DNA from: Rhodopseudomonas palustris
GTDB taxonomy: Bacteria; Pseudomonadota; Alphaproteobacteria; Rhizobiales; Xanthobacteraceae
Length of the DNA: 64,000 nucleotides
Assembly (NCBI GenBank): GCA_016215605.1
Contig: JACRJB010000066.1
Coordinates: 1 to 64,000 of the forward strand
Direction: 5' to 3'
The first letter of the stretch is position 1. The number at the start of each line of letters is the position of its first letter. Both the position numbers and the translations under genes were made by a program. This document shows, piece after piece, positions 24,184-36,356 of this stretch. The notes under the pieces are model-generated. The model searched no databases and was not told where the DNA came from. It worked only from the letters and a program-made list of their open reading frames with translations.

Positions 24184-25173
24184 ATGGACCTGACCCGACG
24201 TCACGCCCTGACTGCCGCCGCCGCGCTCGCCGCCGCGCCGTTGCTGCGCAGCGCTCCCGCCGAAGCGGCGGCGCCGCTCGCCGACAAGCAAGCGCCGAGC
24301 TTCTACCGCTACAAGGTCGGCGACGCGCAGGTGAACGTGATCTCCGACGGCGTGAACACCTTTCCGCTCGGCGACAGCTTCGTGCTCAACGCCAAGAAGG
24401 ACGAGGTCAACAAGGCGCTCGAAGCCGCCTTCCTGCCCAAGGACAAGATCTCGATCAATTTCGCGCCCCTGGTGATCAACACCTCCGGCAAGCTGGTGGT
24501 GGTCGACACCGGCAACGGCCCCGGCGCGTTCGCGTCGAGCAAGGGCAATGTCGGCCAGTTCGCCGGCAACATGGCGGCCGCCGGTTTCGACCCCAAGGCG
24601 GTCGACATGGTGGTGATCTCGCATTTCCACGCCGACCACATCAACGGCCTGCTCACCGCCGACAACCAGCCGGCGTTCCCGAACGCCGAGGTGCTGGTGC
24701 CGGCGGCGGAGTGGAAGTACTTCATGGACGACGGCGAGATGAGCCGCGCTCCCAACGAGCGGATGCAGGGCGTGTTCAAAAACGCCCGCCGGGTGTTCGA
24801 GGCCGGGCTCGCCAAGAAGGTCACGCCGTACGAGTGGGGCAAGGACGTCGCGCCCGGCCTGCTCGCGGTCGAGGCGACCGGCCACACCCCGGGCCACACC
24901 TCGTTCGTGCTGTCGTCCGGCGCCGACAAGGTGTTCATCCAGTCCGACATCACCAACCTGCCGGCGCTGTTCGTCGCCAATCCGGGCTGGCACCTGATGT
25001 TCGACCAGGATCCGGCGCAGGCCGAGACCACCCGCCGCAAGGTCTACGACATGCTGGTCGCCGACAAGATGCGGGTGCAGGGCTTCCACTATCCGTTCCC
25101 GGCCAACGGCTACGTGCAGAAGGACGGCAGCGGCTATCGCCTGGTGCCGGCGCCGTGGAGCCCGGTGATCTGA
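24184..25173 (+). CDS. Exported metallo-beta-lactamase-fold hydrolase
   Basis: A 329-residue zinc-dependent hydrolase. The N-terminus MDLTRRHALTAAAALAAAP is Tat-like (TRRHAL) with a cleavage site near AEA-AAP. The zinc-binding motif HFHADH is at residues 147-152, followed by GHTPGHTSFVL with the third histidine and a downstream FHYPFP histidine. The overall look matches MBL-fold lactonase/quorum-quenching-like or unassigned periplasmic MBL proteins. The substrate is not known. A palindromic repeat follows its stop. Confidence 0.9.
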   Translation: MDLTRRHALTAAAALAAAPLLRSAPAEAAAPLADKQAPSFYRYKVGDAQVNVISDGVNTFPLGDSFVLNAKKDEVNKALEAAFLPKDKISINFAPLVINTSGKLVVVDTGNGPGAFASSKGNVGQFAGNMAAAGFDPKAVDMVVISHFHADHINGLLTADNQPAFPNAEVLVPAAEWKYFMDDGEMSRAPNERMQGVFKNARRVFEAGLAKKVTPYEWGKDVAPGLLAVEATGHTPGHTSFVLSSGADKVFIQSDITNLPALFVANPGWHLMFDQDPAQAETTRRKVYDMLVADKMRVQGFHYPFPANGYVQKDGSGYRLVPAPWSPVI

Positions 25174-26334: not shown

Positions 26335-26880
26335 TCAGGCGGCGAGGCGCGGGGCGAGATGGCGGATCAGCGCCAGAGCCTCGGGCGGCGGCGGTTGCTC
26401 GATCCGGCGATAGGCGCGGCCGTCCGGCGTGCGTGCCATCAGGCCGTGGTCGCACAGCGCGCGGCGCAGCAGCGCGTGGTCGCCGAAGCTGTGATGGCCG
26501 GCGAGCAGTGCGTTGATCTGCTTTTCGCTCAGCTCGCTGCCGCGCGGAATCCGCGACCACAGCACCCACAGCCCGAGCTCGGCATGGCTTGCCTTGGACG
26601 GCCAGCGCAGCAGGCTGCCGCCGGCGTCGAAATGCCGGGCGACGCGCTCGACGCGCTGATGGTCGATCGCCGGCGCCGGCTCCGGCGCGCAGGCGAGGCG
26701 GTCGCCGGCGTCGTGCTGGGCGCGGAAATGCTGGAAATTGCGAAAGCCCGCCGAGCGCGCCAGCAGGTTCAGCATCTCGACATGGCCGAGCTTGCGGTCC
26801 AGTGCGCCAAGCTCGCGATTGAGAGCCCGCGCCAGCGCGGACACGTCCTGCGCGGTGTAGGGGAAAACGGTTCGGGTCAT
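26335..26880 (-). CDS. DUF2087-domain protein
   Basis: A 181-residue cytoplasmic protein. The N-terminal ~55 residues contain GHVEMLNLLARSAGFRNFQH, a conserved helical motif often fused to DUF2087. The C-terminal half (about 85-165) matches DUF2087: RVARHFDAGGSLLRWPSK, then NALLAGHHSFGDHALLRRAL and DGRAYRR. Such proteins are annotated as possible transcriptional regulators, but the function is not established. It is the first gene of a short operon with the alpha/beta hydrolase. Confidence 0.82.
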   Translation of the reverse strand: MTRTVFPYTAQDVSALARALNRELGALDRKLGHVEMLNLLARSAGFRNFQHFRAQHDAGDRLACAPEPAPAIDHQRVERVARHFDAGGSLLRWPSKASHAELGLWVLWSRIPRGSELSEKQINALLAGHHSFGDHALLRRALCDHGLMARTPDGRAYRRIEQPPPPEALALIRHLAPRLAA

Positions 26881-27150
26881 GACCTCATCCTCGATCGTGC
26901 CGATCGGACAAGTCGATGGTCGCTGACTTTCGACGCGGCACGGGACAAGTGTCTGCCGATCAAAGGGCCGTTGGCAGGTTTAGCTCCCCTCGCGGGGCAG
27001 CGACGCCTTGGTGAACTGCCGACCAGTGCGCGGGGAAATACATCCGTCGCCGGAACTTTGCAAGCAGGGCGTGTGCTGCCGGGGCGGCCCGCGACGGCGC
27101 CGCGTCCGGCGGCGCATCGGCGAGGGCGCCATTGCCGCCCCGTCGCCTCG

Positions 27151-28212
27151 TCAAGCCGAAGCGTCGTCGATGTCGTCGAACTCGGCGGCCCCCAACCTGA
27201 GATTGCTGTCGCCGTTGATGGGAAGCCGCGTGGACTGACGCGGCGTCACCCCGAAGCGCTTCCGGTAGCAGGTCGAGAAGTAGGACTGGCCGGTGAAGCC
27301 GCATTCGTAGCCGACCTGGCCGAGATTGATGGAAGCGGCGGAGCGGTGTCCCGTGATCATCTGGCGGGCGCGCTGCAGCCTCAGTTCGAGCAGCCGCTGG
27401 CCGAACGACGTTCCGTGATAATGGAAGATCTTGTGCAGGTAGCGGACCGAAATCTTGTGTTCCCGCGCGGCCTGATCGGGCGACAGATCATGAACGTGCA
27501 GGTTGCGCTGCAGATAGTTGTCGATCCGGCTGTACAGCGACGAGGCGAGCGTCTGCCGGATGAACGCGCCGTCCTGCGGCGACTCGCGCAGGTCGAGCAT
27601 CAGGCAGATCAGGTCGATCACCGATTGCTGCAGCCGGTCGGCATGGTCGCCGGGCGGCAGGTTGAGTAATTGTGTGCCGAGCGTCGCGACAACCGGAACG
27701 AGTTGGGAGTTCGCAATGTTCATCGCGGCGCACAGGCCGTCGATGCCCTTGACGCGGTCGATCAGCAGGCGGCGGTCGATCTTGATGGTGATGTTTTCCG
27801 ACCCGTCGGGAACGTCGACGATGTAATTTTCAGCAGAGTTGAGGAGAAACACGGCGCCCGGCATCGCCAGCCCGGTCCGTCCCCGCTGCTCGAACTCCAG
27901 GCCCTTTCGGGTCGGAAACAGAAACACGAAGTCCTCGGACTGGTCGATTTTCGCGGATTCCTTGCGCCGGATCACGCGTTGCGCGTCCGCCTTGAAGTTC
28001 GACACCCCCATCGATCCGAACTGCACGTCGATCAGTTCGCCGACGACGCGATCGTCGTTCCGGGCCTGAATATCAAGGCGATAATAGACTTCCGCCATGG
28101 CCTGACGCCACGCGGCGATGCTCGCGGACCCGGATAGCGTGGCGGTCGAGTAGTGGTTCTTCTGACTTATCACGGCGACCTCGATAGTGCGGAGTTCTCG
28201 GAACAAACGCAA
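27151..28212 (-). CDS. AraC-family regulator divergent from the amide-uptake/DMFase operon
   Basis: A 353-residue regulator. The N-terminal domain belongs to the AraC-binding-like group (about 20-215, GAVFLLNSAENYIVDVP). The C-terminal helix-turn-helix pair includes DLSPDQAAREHKISVRYLHK and VGYECGFTGQSYFSTCYRKR (close to the FeaR/XylS type). It is divergent from the transporter operon across about 165 bases, which makes it the likely activator of that operon in response to the imported amide or a breakdown product. The effector is an inference. Confidence 0.9.
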   Translation of the reverse strand: MRLFRELRTIEVAVISQKNHYSTATLSGSASIAAWRQAMAEVYYRLDIQARNDDRVVGELIDVQFGSMGVSNFKADAQRVIRRKESAKIDQSEDFVFLFPTRKGLEFEQRGRTGLAMPGAVFLLNSAENYIVDVPDGSENITIKIDRRLLIDRVKGIDGLCAAMNIANSQLVPVVATLGTQLLNLPPGDHADRLQQSVIDLICLMLDLRESPQDGAFIRQTLASSLYSRIDNYLQRNLHVHDLSPDQAAREHKISVRYLHKIFHYHGTSFGQRLLELRLQRARQMITGHRSAASINLGQVGYECGFTGQSYFSTCYRKRFGVTPRQSTRLPINGDSNLRLGAAEFDDIDDASA

Positions 28213-28378
28213 GAAGTATGCCGGCAGCGAAGATCGGCGGGACCACGCCGTGATTAGCAGTGCGCTGGAATTGTAGAGACAGTGCTTCCCAGTGAAAGAC
28301 CAAAATTTGACCAGTTACCTAGGATGAGACGTCTTTCGGCACACGGGCATCCGGGGGGTGCTCATCAGGAGAAGTCTC

Positions 28379-29674
28379 ATGGTCGGCAAGGTCTCACGTC
28401 GCAAACTGCTTCAACTTGCGTCAGCCGGCACGGCTGCTGCCGCTTTTCCAGCACCTTTCGTCTCCGGCGCGACGCGCGCGGCGTCGGCCGATCCGATCCT
28501 GATCGGCGTTCCGACCGCCCAGACCGCCCAGGCCGGCGTCGCTGATCACCAGGACTATCTGAACGGAACGACCTTGGCCCTGGAAGAAATCAACGCCGCG
28601 GGCGGCGTGCTGGGGCGCCAGCTCAAGGCCGTTGTGGTCGATATCGACCCGCTGTCCCCGGAAAGCGGGCAGGTGGCGATCAACAAGCTGATCGACGCCA
28701 AGGTGCACGCGATGTCCTGCGCCTTCGTGTTCACGCCGATCCCGGTGGCCGACGTCTCGGCCCGCTACAAGGCGCCGTTCCTGTGGGGCCTGACGCAACG
28801 CAACATGACCGATCTCGTCGTCAAGCAGCCCGACAAATACTCGCACGTGTTTCAGACCGATCCGTCCGAAGTTCACTACGGCCACACGTTCCCGGTGTTC
28901 CTGAAGGCGATGAAGGATCAGGGCGTGTGGAAGCCGCTGAACAACGGCGTGCACATCGTCCAGGAGCAGATCGCCTACAACCAGACGATTTCGAAGGCGC
29001 TGCAGGCCTCGCTCCCCAAGAGCGAGTTCAAGCTCGCCGGCATCACCGACATCCAGTATCCGGTCCAGGACTGGGGCACGGTCATTCAGGAAATCAAGAA
29101 GGTCGGGGCCGGGGCGGTGATGATCGACCACTGGGTCGCCGCCGAATACGCCGCCTTCGTCAAGCAGTACAGCGCCGACCCGCTGAAGGGCGCGCTGGTC
29201 TATCTGCAATACGGCCCGTCGCAGCCGGAGTTCCTGGAATTGTCCGGCCCCGCCGCGGAAGGCTTCGTCTGGAGCACCGTGCTCGGCGTCTATGCCGACG
29301 AGAAGGGCAAGGCGTTCCGCGCCAAATACAAGAAGCGTTTCCCGGGCATCATGGGGCTCTGCTACACCGGCAACGGCTACGACACGACCTATTATCTCAA
29401 GGCGGCGTGGGAAGCGGTCGGCGATCCGTCGAACTTCAAGGGCGTCAGCGACTGGATCCGCAAGAACTCCTATCGCGGCGTCTGCGGTTTCATGAGCATG
29501 GACAATCCCTATCAGGAGTGCGCGCACTATCCGGACACGGGCGACGCGATCGGCGCGGCCGAGCTGGAGAAGGGCATGGCCCAGCTGTTCTTCCAGGTTC
29601 AGAACAACGAGCACAAGATCATCTATCCGGACGTGCTCGTCGAGAACAAGCTGCAGAAGGCGCCGTGGTGGTGA
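28379..29674 (+). CDS. ABC transporter substrate-binding protein, urea/amide type (Tat-exported)
   Basis: The periplasmic receptor of the importer, 431 residues, in the Liv/AmiC/FmdD type I binding-protein family. ATG at 28379 follows CAGGAGAAG; an upstream GTG at 28358 is less likely. The N-terminus has a Tat signal, SRRKLLQLASAG, with cleavage near SGATRAA-SAD. Features of the family: GVPTAQTAQAG near the start, AGGVLGRQLKAVVVD and DPLSPESGQVAINKLI. The family binds urea, short-chain amides or branched amino acids. Because a DMFase is encoded in the same operon, a small N-substituted amide is the likely ligand. Confidence 0.92.
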   Translation: MVGKVSRRKLLQLASAGTAAAAFPAPFVSGATRAASADPILIGVPTAQTAQAGVADHQDYLNGTTLALEEINAAGGVLGRQLKAVVVDIDPLSPESGQVAINKLIDAKVHAMSCAFVFTPIPVADVSARYKAPFLWGLTQRNMTDLVVKQPDKYSHVFQTDPSEVHYGHTFPVFLKAMKDQGVWKPLNNGVHIVQEQIAYNQTISKALQASLPKSEFKLAGITDIQYPVQDWGTVIQEIKKVGAGAVMIDHWVAAEYAAFVKQYSADPLKGALVYLQYGPSQPEFLELSGPAAEGFVWSTVLGVYADEKGKAFRAKYKKRFPGIMGLCYTGNGYDTTYYLKAAWEAVGDPSNFKGVSDWIRKNSYRGVCGFMSMDNPYQECAHYPDTGDAIGAAELEKGMAQLFFQVQNNEHKIIYPDVLVENKLQKAPWW

Positions 29675-29684
29675 CGCCGGGTCG

Positions 29685-30428
29685 ATGACGATGACTGCAT
29701 CGGCGATCTTTGCCTGCGATCAGATCGGCCTCGATCTCGGCGGGCGGTCGATCCTGCGCGGCATTTCGCTCAGCGTGAAGCCGGGCGAGGTGCTGGGGAT
29801 CATCGGGCCGAACGGCGCCGGCAAGACCAGCCTGTTCGAGGTGTTGTCGGGACGCATCTCGCCGAAGAGCGGAACGGTCGCCTATGGCGGCCGCGAGATC
29901 ACCGGCCTGCCGCTACACCGGCGGGCGCGGCTCGGCATCGGCCGCACCTACCAGACCCCGATCGTACCGGAAGACATGACCGTCGCCCAGGTGCTGAAGG
30001 CGGCGCGGCAGGCGTATCGGCCGTATCTGACGCCCGACGACGCCGAATGGGGCGCGGGGCTGGTCGGCTTCCGGATTCCGGGCAGCATGATGGCGGACCG
30101 GCTCGACACCCTGAACCGCCGCAAGCTGCTGATCGCGTGCCTGCTGATGCGGCGGCCGTCGGTGCTGCTGATGGACGAGCCGGCCGCGGGACTGATCAAC
30201 TCCGAGATCGACGAACTCGACGACATCATGCGGGTGCTCGCCAAGGAGCTGAACATCGCGATCGTGCTGATCGAGCACCGGATGGAGCTGCTCGACACGA
30301 TCGCCGATCGGGTGCTGGTGATGGATGCCGGCGAGACCATCGCCGAGGGGCTGCTGTCCGAGATCCTGGAGAACCCGCGGGTCAAGGCGGCGTATTTCGA
30401 GACCGAAGCGGGCGGGGGGCTGCACTGA
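29685..30428 (+). CDS. ABC transporter ATPase, LivG type, with degenerate signature motif
   Basis: A 247-residue ATPase. Walker A GPNGAGKT, Q-loop RTYQTP, Walker B VLLMDEPAAGL and the switch histidine in LIEHRMELL are present. Where LivG proteins have LSYGE or LSGGE, this one reads LDTLN (residues 140-144), followed by RRKLLIACLL, with no gap in the alignment to Walker B. The signature contributes to the opposite nucleotide site, so the ATPase dimer is predicted to be asymmetric, with one weak site. The gene starts 10 bases after the binding-protein gene and its stop overlaps the next start. Confidence 0.92.
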   Translation: MTMTASAIFACDQIGLDLGGRSILRGISLSVKPGEVLGIIGPNGAGKTSLFEVLSGRISPKSGTVAYGGREITGLPLHRRARLGIGRTYQTPIVPEDMTVAQVLKAARQAYRPYLTPDDAEWGAGLVGFRIPGSMMADRLDTLNRRKLLIACLLMRRPSVLLMDEPAAGLINSEIDELDDIMRVLAKELNIAIVLIEHRMELLDTIADRVLVMDAGETIAEGLLSEILENPRVKAAYFETEAGGGLH

Positions 30429-31168
30429 TGGCCGCTCCCGAAACCGGCGCGGCGCGTCCCGCCGTGCTCGACGTCAAGGGATTGTCGGCGGGCTGGGGGC
30501 CGATGCGCGTGATCCACGACCTCGACCTCACCGTGTTCGCCGGCGAGCGGATCGGCCTCGTCGGGCTCAACGGCCACGGCAAGTCGACATTGTTTCAAGC
30601 GATCGCCGGACTGACAGGCTGGCAACGCGGCTCGATCAAGCTGAACGGCTACGAGGTCGGCCGCACCCGCAGCCAGGGGCCGGGGCGCTACACGCACCTC
30701 ATCGTCCGGCGCGGACTGGCGCTGATTCCGCAGGGCGACGAGATCTTCCACGGCCTGACCGTGGAAGAGCATCTCGACAGCGGCGCCTTCACCAAGCGGG
30801 CCTGGGCCGAGCGCGGCATCCGCAAGAAGCGCATCCTGCAGATCTTCCCGCCGCTGGAGAAGCTGATGAAAACCGCGGTCGGGCGGCTGTCGGGCGGCGA
30901 GCGCCGGATGGTGTCGATCGGCCGCGGGCTGATGTCCGACGCCGAATTGTTCCTGGTCGACGAGCCCTCGCTCGGGCTGGCGCCGAAGATCGGCCGCTCG
31001 GTGGTCGACGCCTTGATGGCGGTCGAGCTCGGCGGTTCGGCGATGGTGATCGCCGAACAGAACGTCGCGCTGCTCGAAGGCAGCGTCGACCGCATCATCG
31101 GAATGCACGCCGGCAAGCTGAAGGGCGAGGCTTCGGCATCCAAGGCCATGTCGACGGAGCGCACCTGA
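30428..31168 (+). CDS. ABC transporter ATPase, LivF type
   Basis: The partner ATPase, 246 residues. ATG at 30428 shares a base with the previous stop (TGATG). It has a canonical Walker A (GLNGHGKST), signature LSGGERRMVSIGRGL, Walker B LFLVDEPSLGLAP and the switch segment VIAEQNV. A short 12-residue N-terminal extension and a Ser/Lys-rich C-terminus are the only oddities. It also ends in a TGATG overlap with the next gene. It should supply the intact signature for the composite site of the dimer. Confidence 0.93.
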   Translation: MAAPETGAARPAVLDVKGLSAGWGPMRVIHDLDLTVFAGERIGLVGLNGHGKSTLFQAIAGLTGWQRGSIKLNGYEVGRTRSQGPGRYTHLIVRRGLALIPQGDEIFHGLTVEEHLDSGAFTKRAWAERGIRKKRILQIFPPLEKLMKTAVGRLSGGERRMVSIGRGLMSDAELFLVDEPSLGLAPKIGRSVVDALMAVELGGSAMVIAEQNVALLEGSVDRIIGMHAGKLKGEASASKAMSTERT

Positions 31169-32049
31169 TGAACTGGGGTTTCATCGTCACCAACGCGATC
31201 ACACTGGCCTGCATCTACGGCACGCTGGCGATCGGGATTTCGGTCACCTGGTCGAGCCTCGGCCTCGTCAACATGGCCTACGGCTTCATCTTCGCGCTGT
31301 CCGGCTACGGCGCGTGGCTGGCGAGCGTGTATATCGGCCCGTATCCGGTCGTGGTGATGGCGGCCGGGATCCTGACCGGCGCGTTCGGCGGGCTGATCGT
31401 CTGTCTGCTCGCCTTCATTCCGATCCACGACAAGCCGAACTTTCCGCTGCGCGCGCTGATCGCCACGCTCGCCATCAGCCTGGTCGGCAATCAGATCCTG
31501 CTGTGGTGGTTCGGACCCCGCGCGAAGTCGCTGCCGCGGCTGTTCGGCAATTGGAACGCCGACATTTTGGGCGTGGTCGTCACCTCGGACAAGCTCGGCG
31601 CCTCGCTGTCGGCGATCCTGCTGCTGACCCTGATCCTGATGTGGATGCGCTCGAGCCGCCGCGGCCTCGAGATCCGGGCGATGATGATGAATCCGCACGC
31701 GGCCTCGATCGTCGGCATCGGCGTCCGCCGCACCAGCATCTATGTGATGGCCCTGACCGGATCGCTCGCTGGCCTCGCGGCGGTGCTGCTGGCGCAGACC
31801 TATTACGTCGCGCCGTTCAGCGGCATCACGCCGATGATCAAGGGGCTCAGCATCGCGCTGGTCGGCGGCCTCGGCAGCATTCCCGGGGCGACCATCGGCG
31901 CCATCATGCTGGGCGTGAACGAGTCGCTGACCTCGACCTTCCTCGGCGGTCAGTACGTCCTGATCACGCAGTTCCTGCTCATCATCGTCGTGCTCCTGAT
32001 CCGCCCGCGCGGGATCTCCGGAATTCTCGACAAGGCGCGCGAGGCATAA
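31168..32049 (+). CDS. ABC transporter permease, LivH type
   Basis: One of the two membrane subunits of the importer, 293 residues with about eight helices. LivH hallmarks: LGLVNMAYGFIFALSGYGAW near the start and LVGGLGSIPGATIGAIMLGV near the end, with EIRAMMMNPHAASIVGI as the coupling loop. ATG at 31168 overlaps the previous stop. The next permease starts 3 bases after its stop, so all transporter subunits are tightly coupled. Confidence 0.93.
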   Translation: MNWGFIVTNAITLACIYGTLAIGISVTWSSLGLVNMAYGFIFALSGYGAWLASVYIGPYPVVVMAAGILTGAFGGLIVCLLAFIPIHDKPNFPLRALIATLAISLVGNQILLWWFGPRAKSLPRLFGNWNADILGVVVTSDKLGASLSAILLLTLILMWMRSSRRGLEIRAMMMNPHAASIVGIGVRRTSIYVMALTGSLAGLAAVLLAQTYYVAPFSGITPMIKGLSIALVGGLGSIPGATIGAIMLGVNESLTSTFLGGQYVLITQFLLIIVVLLIRPRGISGILDKAREA

Positions 32050-32052
32050 GCG

Positions 32053-33702
32053 ATGTCCGACACGACTGCTCCGATCTGGATCGATCCGACCGACTCGCAG
32101 CATCCGGAAACCCCGGCGCGCGAGGTGCCGACCAACCCGTATTTGCCGCATCAGGTGACCTGGGACGAGACCACGCGGTTCCGGCCGAAGATGTATCTGG
32201 TCGGCCGGCTGCGCTACTACTACAAATGGCCCGGCCACGGCGGCGCGCTGTGGACGCGGACGCGCTACTGGCCGACGCGGCGCCGGGTGCTCAACATCCA
32301 CGGCGAGTACAATCCGAAGACGATGCGTCGCGAGAAGACGATCGTCGACAAGCGGCCGATCTGGTGGATGCTGGCGCTCGCGGCGTTCTTCCTGATGCCG
32401 CTGTTCGTGCCGGTGAGTTCCTACAACACGGTGATGTCGGCGGCCTCGGTGTTCGCGATTTACGCGGCCATCAATCTGTGCTGGATGCTGGTGGTCGGCA
32501 CGGCGGGCATCTTCTCGCTGGCGACCTACGCCGTGGTCGGGGCCGCCGCCTACGGCACCACCTATATGGCGATCACGCTGGGCCTGCCATGGTGGGTGCT
32601 GCCGTTCGCGGGGATGCTGATCGGTCTGGCGTTCGGCGTGCTGATCGCTCTGCCGGCGATGCGGCTCGACGGGTTCTACTACGCGCTGCTGACGCTGGGC
32701 GTGGTCGAGCTGTGCCGGGTCTATGTGGTGCAGTCGCGGCAGTTCGGCTCGGCGACCGGCGGCCTCTACGGCGCGCCGAGCTATCTGCCGGCGTGGCTGT
32801 CGCAATCCAACCGGCTGCTGCTCGGCTACTACGTTGCGGTCCTGCTGATGATCCTGGCGCTCGCGCTGTATCGCTTCGTCGACGGCAAGCGGCTCGGCCG
32901 GCTGCTGCGGATGGCGCAGGAGAAGAAGGAAGGCTTCGCGCAGGCCTGCGGCGTCGATTTCATCCGCGCCCGCATCATGGTGTTTCTGATCTCGTCGGCG
33001 GCGCTCGGCTTCATCGGCGGCTTCTACGCGACCCATTTCGGCGGTGCCTCGCCGAACCTGTTCTCGTTCGACACGCTGCTGCTGTCGCTGGCGATGCTGG
33101 TGATCGGCGGCATCGGACGCGCCGAGGGCGCGGTCGCCGGCACGCTGATCGTGGTGTTCATCGACCGGGTGCTGATCGATCTCGGTCCGCTGCGCTTCGT
33201 CCTGATCGGCGCGATCATGCTCGGCGTCGTGCTGTTCCTGCGCGGCGGCATCTTCGGCATCAAGTCGCAGTTCCGCGCCTGGCGCGACAAGAAGAAGAGC
33301 GAGAGGCGCTCAACCCGAGCTGAGAAAGGGGGCGAGATGTTGCCCGAAGAAGCCACCGAAGTCGAAGACAAGGATCAGGTGTATTTCCGCCGCTTCGACA
33401 AGATGCAGCGCGACTTCCTCAAGCGCCTGGTGTCGGACGCGGTGATCGCCGAGCACAAGTCCAAGCCGCTCGGTCAGCACAGCGAAGCGCTGGAACGCCT
33501 GCTGATCTATTTCCGCCGCCAGGGCCAGATCGACAAATACGCCATCATGGTGCTGGAGGAGTTCAAGGCCTACCGCATCGTCGCGCTGTCGGGCCACCGC
33601 GGCACCGCGCCGCGCATGGTCGAGGACCGCAACTACGAGACGCCCGACGAAGCCTATCACGCGCTGTTCCTGCGTCGCGTCCAGGACCTGCTCGAAACCT
33701 AA
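32053..33702 (+). CDS. ABC permease (LivM type) fused in frame to DMFase small-subunit domain
   Basis: A 549-residue open frame with three parts. Residues 1-100 form an unusual cytoplasmic extension rich in Trp, Tyr and Arg (YYYKWPGHGGALWTRTRYW). About 102-415 is a LivM permease (GIFSLATYAVVGAAAYG, RLDGFYYALLTLGVVEL, GGFYATHFGGASP, GGIGRAEGAVAGT). From residue 429 the sequence is soluble and helical and matches the DMFase small subunit: YFRRQGQIDKYAI, EFKAYRIVALSGHRG, and TPDEAYHALFLRRVQDL in part. An ATG with a strong ribosome site marks the junction at 33337. In another register the junction reads EALNPS then TGA at 33321, the sort of end a free permease would have, so a one-base deletion (or a sequence error) could have created the fusion. 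Confidence 0.85.
   Translation: MSDTTAPIWIDPTDSQHPETPAREVPTNPYLPHQVTWDETTRFRPKMYLVGRLRYYYKWPGHGGALWTRTRYWPTRRRVLNIHGEYNPKTMRREKTIVDKRPIWWMLALAAFFLMPLFVPVSSYNTVMSAASVFAIYAAINLCWMLVVGTAGIFSLATYAVVGAAAYGTTYMAITLGLPWWVLPFAGMLIGLAFGVLIALPAMRLDGFYYALLTLGVVELCRVYVVQSRQFGSATGGLYGAPSYLPAWLSQSNRLLLGYYVAVLLMILALALYRFVDGKRLGRLLRMAQEKKEGFAQACGVDFIRARIMVFLISSAALGFIGGFYATHFGGASPNLFSFDTLLLSLAMLVIGGIGRAEGAVAGTLIVVFIDRVLIDLGPLRFVLIGAIMLGVVLFLRGGIFGIKSQFRAWRDKKKSERRSTRAEKGGEMLPEEATEVEDKDQVYFRRFDKMQRDFLKRLVSDAVIAEHKSKPLGQHSEALERLLIYFRRQGQIDKYAIMVLEEFKAYRIVALSGHRGTAPRMVEDRNYETPDEAYHALFLRRVQDLLET
33325..33339 (+). promoter_or_regulatory. Internal ribosome site and ATG at the permease/DMFase junction
   Basis: AAAGGGGG then CGAG then ATG, in frame with the permease. 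It would allow the small subunit to be made alone as a 121-residue protein even though no stop separates it from the permease. Confidence 0.65.
33337..33702 (+). CDS. N,N-dimethylformamidase small (alpha) subunit, as internal start product or fused domain
   Basis: A 121-residue product if translation begins at the internal ATG. The known DMFase small subunit is about 130 residues and I recall its conserved core as YFRxQ, KYxI, ExxAYRI and EEAxHAxFLRRIxD. All are present here: YFRRQ, KYAI, EEFKAYRI and DEAYHALFLRRVQD. In the enzyme the small subunit packs on the large subunit encoded 36 bases downstream. Subunit assignment rests on this motif match and the neighbour, not on a search. Overlaps the fused frame that starts at 32053. 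Confidence 0.6.
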   Translation: MLPEEATEVEDKDQVYFRRFDKMQRDFLKRLVSDAVIAEHKSKPLGQHSEALERLLIYFRRQGQIDKYAIMVLEEFKAYRIVALSGHRGTAPRMVEDRNYETPDEAYHALFLRRVQDLLET

Positions 33703-33738
33703 CACCGCTCAGTTCAGTCGCCGGAGAAGCCCACCACC

Positions 33739-36057
33739 ATGGCCGAGAAGAAGATATTCGGATACGCGGACAAGATTTCGGTCAAGCCCGGCGACGACAT
33801 TTCGTTCTACGTGCACGCCGACGGCACCGACATCGTCGACGCGCAGTTGGTGCGCCTGATCCACGGCGACGCGCATCCGGCCGGTCCCGGCTACAAGGAG
33901 GAGGAGATCGCCAACGAGGCCAACGGCGTCTGGCGCGTCCGCAAGCAGTTCACCCAGGTCGGCTCGTTTCTCACCGTGGCCGACCCGGAGCAGCGATTGG
34001 CGCTGAACGGCAGCTTCAGCCTGTGCACCTTCGTGCATCCGAACAGTCCGGGCGGCGGCCGGCGGCAGTGTCTGCTCGGCAAGTGGGACGCGTTCGGCAA
34101 TCGCGGCTACGGATTGTGGCTCAACCCGGACGGCTTCCTCGAATTCGGCTTTGGCGACGGGCACGAGGTGGACTATCTCGATGCCGAAGTGCCGGTGCTC
34201 AAGAACAATTGGTACTTCGTCGCGGCGACGTTCGACGCCAAGACCGGCGTCGCGACGCTGTATCAGGAGGGCGTGGCGACCCGCTACAACTCGCTGCTCA
34301 GCAAGGTCGCCAATGTCGACTTCCGCTCGCATGTGCGCGAGACGCTGCGCTTCCGGCCGGTCAACCCGCCGGAGATTCCGTTTCTGCTCGCCGGCGCGCG
34401 CGATCACCACACGCTGCGCGGCGACTTCGTCACGCAGTGCCTCAACGGCAAGCTCGACCGGCCCGCGGTGTTCGATCGCGTGCTGACGCGCGACGAACTC
34501 GACCGCTATCGCGACAGCGGACTGGCGCCGCAGAACGGGCTGGTGGCGTATTGGGACACGGCGGAGGGCTATTCCGCGCAGGGCATAGGCGATCGGGTGA
34601 TTGATGCCGGGCCTTATGGTTTGCACGCCGAGGGCTACAATCGCCCGGTCCGGGCCCAGACGGGGTTCAACTGGCAGGGCAAGGACGATTGCTTCCGGCT
34701 GGCGCCCGAGCAATACGGCGGCATCGAGTTTCACGACGATGCCATCATCGATTGCAAATGGGAGTTGACGCGCACGATCAAGGTGCCCGACCTCAAGAGC
34801 GGCGCCTACGCCTTCCGCCTGCGGACCGGCGACGCCAAGGGGATGCGCGAGGAATACATCGTGTTCTTCGTCCGCCCGGTCAAGCCGAAGGCGCCGATCC
34901 TGTTCCTGGTGCCGACCGGAAGCTATCTGGCCTATGCCAACGAGCATCTGAGCTTCGACGCCGAGATCATGCAGCCGCTCGCGGGGCAGTCGCCGATTCT
35001 GTCCGAGGTCGACATCGAGCTGTACCAGACCGCGGAGTTCGGCCTGTCGCTGTACGACCATCACGCCGACGGGGCAGGGGTCTGCTACAGCACCTATCGC
35101 CGGCCGATCCTGAACATGCGCCCGAAGGCCCGGATGTCGTCGATGGGCGTGACCTGGCAGTTTCCGGCGGATCTGTCGATCATCGCCTGGCTCGAGCATC
35201 AGGGCTACGACTATGAGATCACCACCGACGAGGATCTGCATCGCGACGGCGTCGGGGCGCTGAAGCCCTACAGCGTGGTGCTGAGCGGGACGCATCCGGA
35301 ATACGTGTCCGAGGCGATGCTGGACGCCACCGAGGATTACATCGCCTCAGGCGGCCGCTTCATCTATCTCGGCGGCAACGGCTTCTATTGGAATGTCGGT
35401 TACCACGGCGACGATCCGTGGTGCATGGAGGTGCGCAAGCTGAATTCGGGCATGCGAGCATGGCAGGCGCGGCCCGGCGAGTATTATCTGGCGACGACCG
35501 GGCAGAAGAGCGGGCTGTGGAAGGACCTCGGCCGCCCGCCGCAGAAGGTGTTCGGCGTCGGCTTCATCTCGGAAGGGTTCGACTCGGCGCGGCCGTTCCG
35601 CCGGATGCCGGATAGCTGGCATCGCCGCGCCTCCTGGATGATGGAGGGCATCGAGGGCGAGATCATCGGCGATTTCGGCCTCGCGCAGGGCGCCGCCGGC
35701 GGCATCGAGATCGACCGCTACGACCTGACGCTCGGCACCCCGCCGCACTCGCTGATCGTCGCGTCGTCCGGCGGACACAGCGACAATTATCAGACCGTGG
35801 TGGAGGAGGTGCTCTATCCCTATCCGGGCCTGTCCGGATCGCACGATTATCGGGTGCGCGCCGACATGGTGTATTTCACCGCGCCGAACGACGGCGCGGT
35901 GTTCTCCACCGGCTCGATCGCGTTCAGCCAGTCGCTGCCGTACAAGAATTTCGACAACAACGTGTCGCGCCTGCTCGGCAACATCGTCACGGCGTTCAGC
36001 AAGCCCGGCAAGCTGCCCGGCTGGGCGTGGTCGGCCGAGGAGAAGCAGTGGCGCTGA
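33739..36057 (+). CDS. dmfA2: N,N-dimethylformamidase large (beta) subunit-like amidohydrolase
   Basis: The iron-dependent amidohydrolase subunit, 772 residues (family about 760). DMFase hydrolyses N,N-dimethylformamide to dimethylamine and formate. The N-terminal ~300 residues include a LamG/ConA-like lectin fold (SFSLCTFVHP, GYGLWLNPDGFLEFGFGDG, NNWYFVAATFDAKTG). The C-terminal region carries candidate iron-site residues. I recall the iron in Paracoccus DMFase being held by two tyrosines and one glutamate. Here Tyr399 (SYLAYANEH), Tyr439 (LSLYDHHADG) and Glu521 in GTHPEY, with His519, fall at nearly the same numbers. The motif YLGGNGFYW follows. The true substrate may be DMF or a related amide. 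A terminator follows at 36083. Confidence 0.88.
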   Translation: MAEKKIFGYADKISVKPGDDISFYVHADGTDIVDAQLVRLIHGDAHPAGPGYKEEEIANEANGVWRVRKQFTQVGSFLTVADPEQRLALNGSFSLCTFVHPNSPGGGRRQCLLGKWDAFGNRGYGLWLNPDGFLEFGFGDGHEVDYLDAEVPVLKNNWYFVAATFDAKTGVATLYQEGVATRYNSLLSKVANVDFRSHVRETLRFRPVNPPEIPFLLAGARDHHTLRGDFVTQCLNGKLDRPAVFDRVLTRDELDRYRDSGLAPQNGLVAYWDTAEGYSAQGIGDRVIDAGPYGLHAEGYNRPVRAQTGFNWQGKDDCFRLAPEQYGGIEFHDDAIIDCKWELTRTIKVPDLKSGAYAFRLRTGDAKGMREEYIVFFVRPVKPKAPILFLVPTGSYLAYANEHLSFDAEIMQPLAGQSPILSEVDIELYQTAEFGLSLYDHHADGAGVCYSTYRRPILNMRPKARMSSMGVTWQFPADLSIIAWLEHQGYDYEITTDEDLHRDGVGALKPYSVVLSGTHPEYVSEAMLDATEDYIASGGRFIYLGGNGFYWNVGYHGDDPWCMEVRKLNSGMRAWQARPGEYYLATTGQKSGLWKDLGRPPQKVFGVGFISEGFDSARPFRRMPDSWHRRASWMMEGIEGEIIGDFGLAQGAAGGIEIDRYDLTLGTPPHSLIVASSGGHSDNYQTVVEEVLYPYPGLSGSHDYRVRADMVYFTAPNDGAVFSTGSIAFSQSLPYKNFDNNVSRLLGNIVTAFSKPGKLPGWAWSAEEKQWR

Positions 36058-36082
36058 GATCGCCGCGATCGAAGACCTGAAG

Positions 36083-36116
36083 AGCGCGGCCCGCTATCCG
36101 GCGTGGCCGCGCTTTT
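36083..36116 (+). terminator. Probable rho-independent terminator of the DMFase operon
   Basis: AGCGCGGCC pairs with GGCCGCGCT (9 base pairs, 13-base loop) and is followed directly by TTT, 26 bases after the DMFase stop. Confidence 0.65.
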
Positions 36117-36356
36117 CGCATGGCTGTACCTTGGCGGGATGCTTGACGCTGCTGCGATCTGAATCTATCAACCGTTCCATGATCAACGCCGCGACCATCG
36201 TCAAAGCCACCCGCCGCCGCATCCCCGCGGTAGGAGCGGCTGTTCGCGATTGACAGCGTTGCCCCTGCCGCCGGTTTCGGTCCGCGGCAGGTCGATCATC
36301 TCCCCCTCCAGACGCGACCAGATCCCGGCGGCTCCGCCTTCAACCAGGAGCCAGCC
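36117..36356. other. Intergenic region upstream of the PaiB-like gene
   Basis: About 240 bases after the terminator. No gene is supported. It should contain the promoter for the PaiB-like gene, whose ATG at 36357 follows AGGAGCCAGC. Confidence 0.4.

Follow-up and report, generated by a model that had tools for sequence, protein, structure and literature searches.

A LivM-Like Permease Fused to a Dimethylformamidase-Family Small Subunit in Rhodopseudomonas palustris and Other Proteobacteria

INTRODUCTION

The N,N-dimethylformamidase (DMFase) of Paracoccus consists of large and small subunits, and residues Y399, Y440, H519, E521, N547, and E657 of the large subunit are iron ligands or catalytic residues (PMC7686228). 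The large subunit alone is inactive, the entrance of the active site is built jointly by both subunits, and F693 narrows the pocket (PMC7686228). Here, we analyze a locus of Rhodopseudomonas palustris (contig JACRJB010000066.1) that encodes a DMFase-family hydrolase together with an ATP-binding cassette (ABC) importer, and in which the small subunit is fused in frame to the C terminus of the LivM-like permease. All positions refer to the window, i.e., the whole 64,000-nucleotide stretch of DNA. Domains were assigned by Pfam and NCBIfam profile scans, and operon status and all functional readings are predictions from sequence and structure only.

The original prediction had placed an importer and a DMFase-family hydrolase in one operon, which is right, and a neighborhood comparison showed the arrangement to be conserved in relatives. 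It had also proposed a dedicated uptake system. Uptake plus hydrolysis is still the best reading, to which we add an in-frame physical coupling that had not been stated: judging from the fusion, the link is probably more than transcriptional, the enzyme presumably being tethered where the channel opens.

RESULTS

No separate small-subunit gene is present inside the window operon. The original prediction had noted small-subunit motifs upstream; the small subunit is the C terminus of the second permease open reading frame (ORF). The fusion protein has an N-terminal extension of ~100 residues, a LivM-like permease (residues ~101 to 400), a basic linker (~401 to 431), and the small subunit (about 429 to 549). 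The C-terminal part matched the Paracoccus small subunit 6lvb_B in a phmmer search (E = 1e-10) and a small-subunit family profile at 1.7e-13. When the predicted structure of the fusion was searched with Foldseek, the small-subunit domain retrieved 6lvv_B and 6lvb_B (probability, 1.00; template modeling [TM] scores, 0.78 to 0.79) and the membrane part retrieved BtuC-like permeases. Pfam and NCBIfam show only the permease in this ORF. Because small subunits, free ones included, draw no Pfam match at 1e-3 and no meaningful NCBIfam match, the fusion is invisible in annotation.

The basic linker (KSQFRAWRDKKKSERRSTRAEK) follows the last membrane helix, which suggests that the tail is cytoplasmic. 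The ratio of nonsynonymous to synonymous polymorphism (pN/pS), calculated over 46 distinct frames, was 0.158 for the linker, 0.323 for the small subunit, 0.373 for the transmembrane core, and 0.546 for the N-terminal extension, making the linker the most conserved part of the protein by this measure. Locus L054 was excluded from alignment A1 for an apparent frameshift near the N terminus. The N-terminal extension (32053 to 32352) carries a motif, VGRLRYYYKWPGHG...DKRPIWW, that is conserved in most fusions.

The large subunit belongs to the DMFase family, as had been predicted. It has a DMFA2_C domain (PF20254, 1.6e-89) and a Laminin_G_3 domain, and it aligns to the solved Paracoccus large subunit 6lvb_A over residues 5 to 760 (E = 1e-185). 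In this alignment, Y399, Y439 (equivalent to Paracoccus Y440), H519, P520, E521, N547, and E657 are all in place, including the HPE motif at 519 to 521 and the two tyrosines that had been pointed out beforehand; the 2-Tyr-1-Glu iron site is thus complete, together with His519, Asn547, and Glu657. The position of F693 is occupied by Tyr. The small subunit is also present, as the C-terminal domain of the permease, while its free chain is a proposed product only (see below). Judged by these comparisons, the fused small subunit makes the system a variant, not a plain member, of the DMFase family. The features of the operon and of two loci used for comparison are listed in Table 1.

Table 1. Features of the fusion operon in the window and of two comparison loci
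Feature	Position	Strand	Evidence or remark
AraC/FeaR-like regulator, divergent	27151..28212	-	AraC_binding_2, HTH_18; FeaR profile match under cut-off
Intergenic region between the divergent genes; promoter and regulator site presumed	28213..28357	.	Space between two start codons
Periplasmic binding protein	28358..29674	+	Peripla_BP_6
ABC ATPase 1, LivG-like	29685..30428	+	ABC_tran
ABC ATPase 2, LivF-like	30428..31168	+	ABC_tran; canonical LSGGE signature
Permease, LivH-like	31168..32049	+	BPD_transp_2
LivM-like permease fused to DMFase small subunit, 549 residues	32053..33702	+	BPD_transp_2; small-subunit homology and fold
Shine-Dalgarno-like run and internal start, AAA GGG GGC GAG ATG	33325..33339	+	Start codon at 33337; proposed free small subunit of 121 residues
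DMFase-family large (catalytic) subunit, 772 residues	33739..36057	+	PF20254, 6lvb_A, active-site residues intact
Terminator-like hairpin	36078..36118	+	Folding energy versus shuffles
Second importer-linked DMFase-family operon, unfused, same genome	L063 5697-11965, contig C27
Free small subunit and large subunit, Caballeronia insecticola plasmid p2	L156 7606-10298		Beside amidase, aldolase, and other genes

We investigated the distribution of the fusion with several queries. A GTDB contig scan with the whole fusion returned 38 loci, and in 37 of them the permease runs into the small subunit in one frame (the remaining one, L061, stops at a contig end). As this query holds both parts, the surveys were repeated with the parts apart. 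The small subunit alone matched 15 of the 198 genomes of the family, 7 with fused copies (9 loci) and the others with free ones. The small-subunit profile matched 38 of 385 genomes of the class, of which 2 were seen fused (the window and G198); only matches with open frames of at least 400 were fetched in that survey, and the other fetched ones had no LivM-like permease. Seven of 398 genomes of the phylum matched as well, three of them fused. The permease-only query, a profile built from fused permeases with the small domain omitted, matched 16 of 397 genomes of the order at an E value of 1e-60, and all 16 were fused; 14 of these were newly fetched and checked, two of them being cut by contig ends and fused in the visible part, and the remaining two are the window and G026. 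Three of the matches (L165, L166, and L171) have a separate small gene and still keep the fusion.

Altogether, 73 fused frames from Alpha- and Gammaproteobacteria gave 52 distinct ones after removal of identical junction regions. By construction, this set is restricted to frames that stay open across the junction and cannot count unfused cases; the family survey with the small subunit alone and the order survey with the permease alone are free of that bias. The fusion is present in two single-contig genomes (G108 and G043) and on complete plasmids of Agrobacterium and Aminobacter, whose records name only a branched-chain amino acid permease. We also considered a sequencing or assembly frameshift that joined two genes. 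There is a stop in another frame close by, the ORF in that frame ending at 33323. However, the same open frame and linker recur across many assemblies and all permease-only matches are fused, which rules this explanation out; whatever probability it keeps is negligible. The comparisons indicate that the fusion is real, general, old, and selected. We found no description of such a fusion in searches of open-license PMC papers, in which long result lists were covered in part.

Two further small subunits were noticed during the surveys. The plasmid of the archaeon Halalkalicoccus jeotgali encodes one of 180 residues (L157, 7416 to 7958; profile E = 1e-28) that is annotated as an "inner-membrane translocator" and draws no permease domain; fusion to a permease elsewhere would explain this naming error. 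A 1.4-Mb genome (G456) carries, one after another, genes for a rhodopsin, a flotillin, a sodium symporter, and both DMFase subunits, the small one first (L125, 746 to 9705). This array looks like the FArhodopsin cluster of PMC10308929, whose "inner membrane translocator" is perhaps a DMFase small subunit that took its wrong name from the fused permease.

The junction between permease and small subunit contains a possible internal start site. After five of the 52 frames with a cut downstream part had been dropped (L051, L054, L057, L077, and L168), 47 distinct fusion operons were available, 35 without and 12 with a separate small gene, "without" meaning none in the same operon. All 35 operons without one have a start codon at the junction (33 ATG and 2 TTG), versus 6 of the 12 with one (ATG in 5, TTG in 1). 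Likewise, the junction Lys codon is AAA in 32/35 operons of the first kind and in 2/12 of the second, and in an earlier set it ranked first for AAA among 14 conserved Lys columns (30/32). The pattern is carried by codon choice and by the presence of the start codon, not by Shine-Dalgarno (SD) energy. It suggests that one frame may yield both a membrane-bound and a free small subunit. Aminobacter MDW-2 is a telling case for the proposed internal start: it has two large subunits, its operon lacks a free small gene, and it keeps AAAGGAGGCGAAATG.

The same pattern would also suit a different explanation, in which the fusion is a translational convenience: the working small subunit would be a short form, made from the internal start or by proteolysis at the basic linker, and the soluble enzyme would merely share the operon. 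A junction start codon in every operon without a separate small gene, preceded by a purine-rich codon in 32 of them, agrees with this, as does the free small subunit in L063, in Caballeronia, and in both known loci for degradation of N,N-dimethylformamide (DMF). We regard it as unlikely, since no other part of the protein is as constrained in amino acid sequence as the linker, L165, L166, and L171 retain the fusion next to a separate small gene, and each of the 16 permease-only matches carries the domain.

Some operons have two large-subunit genes, and in all nine distinct ones a copy with an intact active site is paired with a degraded one. The degraded copies lost two or three of the six residues. 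Three combinations occur: R519 and A657 together with F or L at 399 in the first copy of seven operons, C439 with A657 in the second copy of L050, and A521 with A657 in the second copy of MDW-2. None of these residues is lost in the 37 single-large operons that could be scored in full, and two more that are partly visible have intact visible residues.

A quick tree of 93 large subunits, with long branches, placed the fusion-linked and tandem copies in one group of 48 (Shimodaira-Hasegawa-like approximate likelihood ratio test [SH-aLRT], 97). Importer operons with a separate small gene formed a distinct group of 11 (SH-aLRT, 100), which includes L063 of the same genome. Like the window, L063 has Liv-type permeases, ATPases, and a DMFase-family pair in one run, but its gene order is different, with the small subunit encoded on its own downstream of the ATPases. 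The group also differs in the active site: the position of the oxyanion residue Asn547 of the window is Asp in 11/11 members.

The importer has all parts of the Liv/HAAT type, i.e., a binding protein, two permeases, and two ATPases, in a single run, and it is atypical in its ATPases. ATPase 1 has LDTLNRRK in place of the LSGGQ signature, so that two canonical signatures are not found. The replacement, L[DEK]T..RRK, is seen in 42/42 orthologues from fusion systems (one with an unread first residue), and ATPase 2 keeps LSGGE in 42/42. In a comparison set of 33 other fetched ATPases, LSxG is retained in the most common signatures, LSHGE being the most frequent (12/33). Given such an importer, the small-subunit domain might instead be a regulatory tail that senses the hydrolase, assembled or not, or its ligand, and gates transport, as regulatory domains of other ABC importers do, without any hand-over. 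Its place at the C-terminal end of a permease agrees with this, and the persistence of degraded large copies would suit a regulatory or scaffold partner. However, most of the domain is homologous to the working small subunit, and 35 of the 47 operons show no other small-subunit gene; we consider this reading unlikely.

The binding protein could not be used to name the substrate. Its nearest solved chain, 3h5l_A (E = 2e-42), bears no more specific title than putative branched-chain amino acid transporter, and the NCBIfam models of LivK, UrtA, LivM, and UrtC match the importer proteins far below their cut-offs. The description of the importer as "amide-type" in the original prediction is therefore not established, the binding protein being far under the cut-offs of LivK and UrtA. 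The protein carries the sequence SRRKLLQ, which we take, by eye, to be a Tat-like signal.

That the importer depends on a binding protein suggests a substrate that is scarce, polar, and poorly permeant, and an N-substituted amide that serves as a C1 or nitrogen source would fit, as had been suggested. Porin or porin-like genes lie beside or in the operon of two relatives (L029, and L114 by eye with no Pfam match). An ordinary DMF degradation operon with an importer would account for the family membership and the intact catalytic residues. DMF is a membrane-permeant solvent, however. DMF itself is an unlikely substrate because the two known DMF-degrader loci examined (regulator-small-large) are without an annotated transporter in the fetched stretches, whose gene tables are incomplete. 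These loci have a LuxR regulator and their enzymes lie outside the fusion group. Moreover, the pocket-narrowing F693 is replaced in all 41 large subunits adjoining the fusion, by Tyr in 39 and by His in 2. Taken together, we find the DMF explanation quite improbable.

The regulator of the operon varies by lineage. It is of the AraC type in Rhodopseudomonas, Tardiphaga, several Bradyrhizobium, Methylobacterium, and others, whereas Methylocella and Hyphomicrobium have a histidine kinase and a LuxR-type response regulator adjoining a second binding protein. Such lineage-specific regulators suggest substrate sensing without naming the substrate. The true start of the window regulator may sit within the listed TTG frame (27151 to 28212).

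The layout of the operon agrees with the original prediction in most respects. Seven ORFs and their domains bear out the gene order, with a divergent AraC regulator followed by a binding protein, two ATPases, two permeases, and DMFase parts, and the ORF coordinates reproduce the gaps of 10, -1, -1, 3, and 36 bases. The single terminator expected at the end corresponds to a strong hairpin (-32.6 kcal/mol; z, -3.54; none of 200 shuffles equal) whose 3' arm ends in UUUU; a simple terminator scan misses it, as its T tail is four and the scan requires five. A promoter scan listed no sigma-70-like site in the divergent intergenic region, and its overall yield was 1 site versus 1.4 expected.

Twenty flanking genes were scanned and gave no consistent pathway; they include genes for a porin, a glutathione transferase, an AMP-ligase, a chemoreceptor, two-component systems, and a pyrroloquinoline quinone dehydrogenase. 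An FmdA_AmdA amidase is encoded elsewhere in the genome, on a different contig. An Rfam COG3860 cis-regulatory RNA (RF02940; 76 bits; 26972 to 27025, minus strand) directly precedes a DUF2087 gene (26335 to 26880). A metallo-beta-lactamase-fold protein is encoded at 24184 to 25173; its closest model is the AidB quorum-quenching lactonase, below cut-off.

DISCUSSION

The locus encodes a Liv (HAAT)-type importer whose LivM-like permease bears the small subunit, and we think it probable, if far from certain, that a DMFase-family iron amide hydrolase docks on this importer as an asymmetric complex. The binding protein would capture a small polar N-substituted amide, which would then be taken up at the expense of ATP and cut at the point of entry. 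Since the entrance of the active site is formed by both subunits, anchoring the small subunit on the permease would hold the enzyme, with its entrance, at the membrane. LivH and LivM are different proteins, and each importer would thus bring one fused small subunit. With an α2β2 enzyme, as in Paracoccus, a second, free small subunit would be needed. It could come from the internal start at 33337 in most operons and otherwise from the separate gene, and lineages with two large genes could let one copy lose its site.

A more far-reaching proposal, which we offer tentatively as a possibility, is that of a transport metabolon, in which the substrate would pass from channel to active site within an obligately asymmetric complex. 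This would combine one fused and one free small subunit from one frame by internal initiation, a live/dead pair of large subunits in tandem lineages, and canonical and degenerate ATP sites.

Several observations weigh against docking on the importer or against the internal start. AlphaFold models the fusion with modest scores (mean predicted local distance difference test score, 65.5; predicted TM score, 0.49) and defines the linker poorly. In the Paracoccus enzyme, the small subunit inserts its N-terminal helix as a wedge between the large subunits, and fusion at this N terminus might hinder assembly. The constraint on the linker would be raised by four to five codons that also hold the supposed ribosome site. 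At the junction itself, two of the 35 operons without a separate gene use TTG and three use AAG, and two further Lys columns favor AAA (0.75 and 0.72), against no more than 0.27 in the remaining columns. When SD strength was compared with synonymous recodings, P fell below 0.05 in just 3 of the 34 loci, with 0.117 for the window and a median of 0.28. On the tree, free-gene gains provide only two independent contrasts, far short of significance; AAA plus ATG went in the expected direction in both, ATG alone in 1.5 on average, and the rest showed no difference. The window genome also has a distant small-subunit homologue elsewhere.

Unfused relatives weigh in the same direction. Importer operons without the fusion exist, L063 of the same genome being one. 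In a second tree, extended by seven plasmid rows, the group comprised all 51 fusion or tandem rows and the unfused Caballeronia insecticola (SH-aLRT, 95), which has a long branch in what was again a quick tree with long branches. The enzymes of the two known DMF degraders fall just outside the group there. The small subunit of Caballeronia is free (profile E = 2e-40), and no permease is annotated within 8 kb of its DMFase pair. Either the fusion was lost in Caballeronia together with the importer, or the placement in the tree is wrong. The fusion is not indispensable, and the enzyme can exist without the permease. A single origin of the fusion, backed by the first tree, is weakened by the position of Caballeronia in the second.

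Direct hand-over from an importer to an enzyme is hard to test; such contacts are usually transient. The fusion may represent a contact that evolution has welded and kept across a range of Proteobacteria. It comes with natural controls: unfused sister operons (one of them in the same genome), operons with versus without a free small subunit, and a dead large copy.

Compared with the Paracoccus DMFase (6lvb; PMC7686228), the large subunit of the window is homologous end to end and shares the tested catalytic residues, and the small subunit is homologous with the same fold match. The differences are that the Paracoccus small subunit is a free chain of 132 residues while that of the window is the tail of a permease, and that F693 is Tyr in the window. 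The dmfR-dmfA1-dmfA2 locus on pAMI2 of Paracoccus aminophilus and the locus on pLVM1 of Methylobacterium sp. DM1 have the small-large order of the window, and their small subunits match the small-subunit profile at 6e-22 and 1e-20, but they have a LuxR regulator and no fusion.

An amide hydrolase with a dedicated ABC importer is likewise found in Methylophilus, where the amide/urea importer FmdDEF is encoded beside the formamidase FmdA. The hydrolase family of FmdA is unrelated to DMFase, and we know of no fusion in that system. Enzymes joined to the transporter of their own substrate are represented by SulP-carbonic anhydrase proteins and peptidase-containing ABC exporters; these are not ABC importers, and they carry a whole enzyme domain, not the entrance subunit of a multisubunit enzyme. 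The fusion of a permease with a hydrolase subunit, with possible dual translation, is a new combination of two known families.

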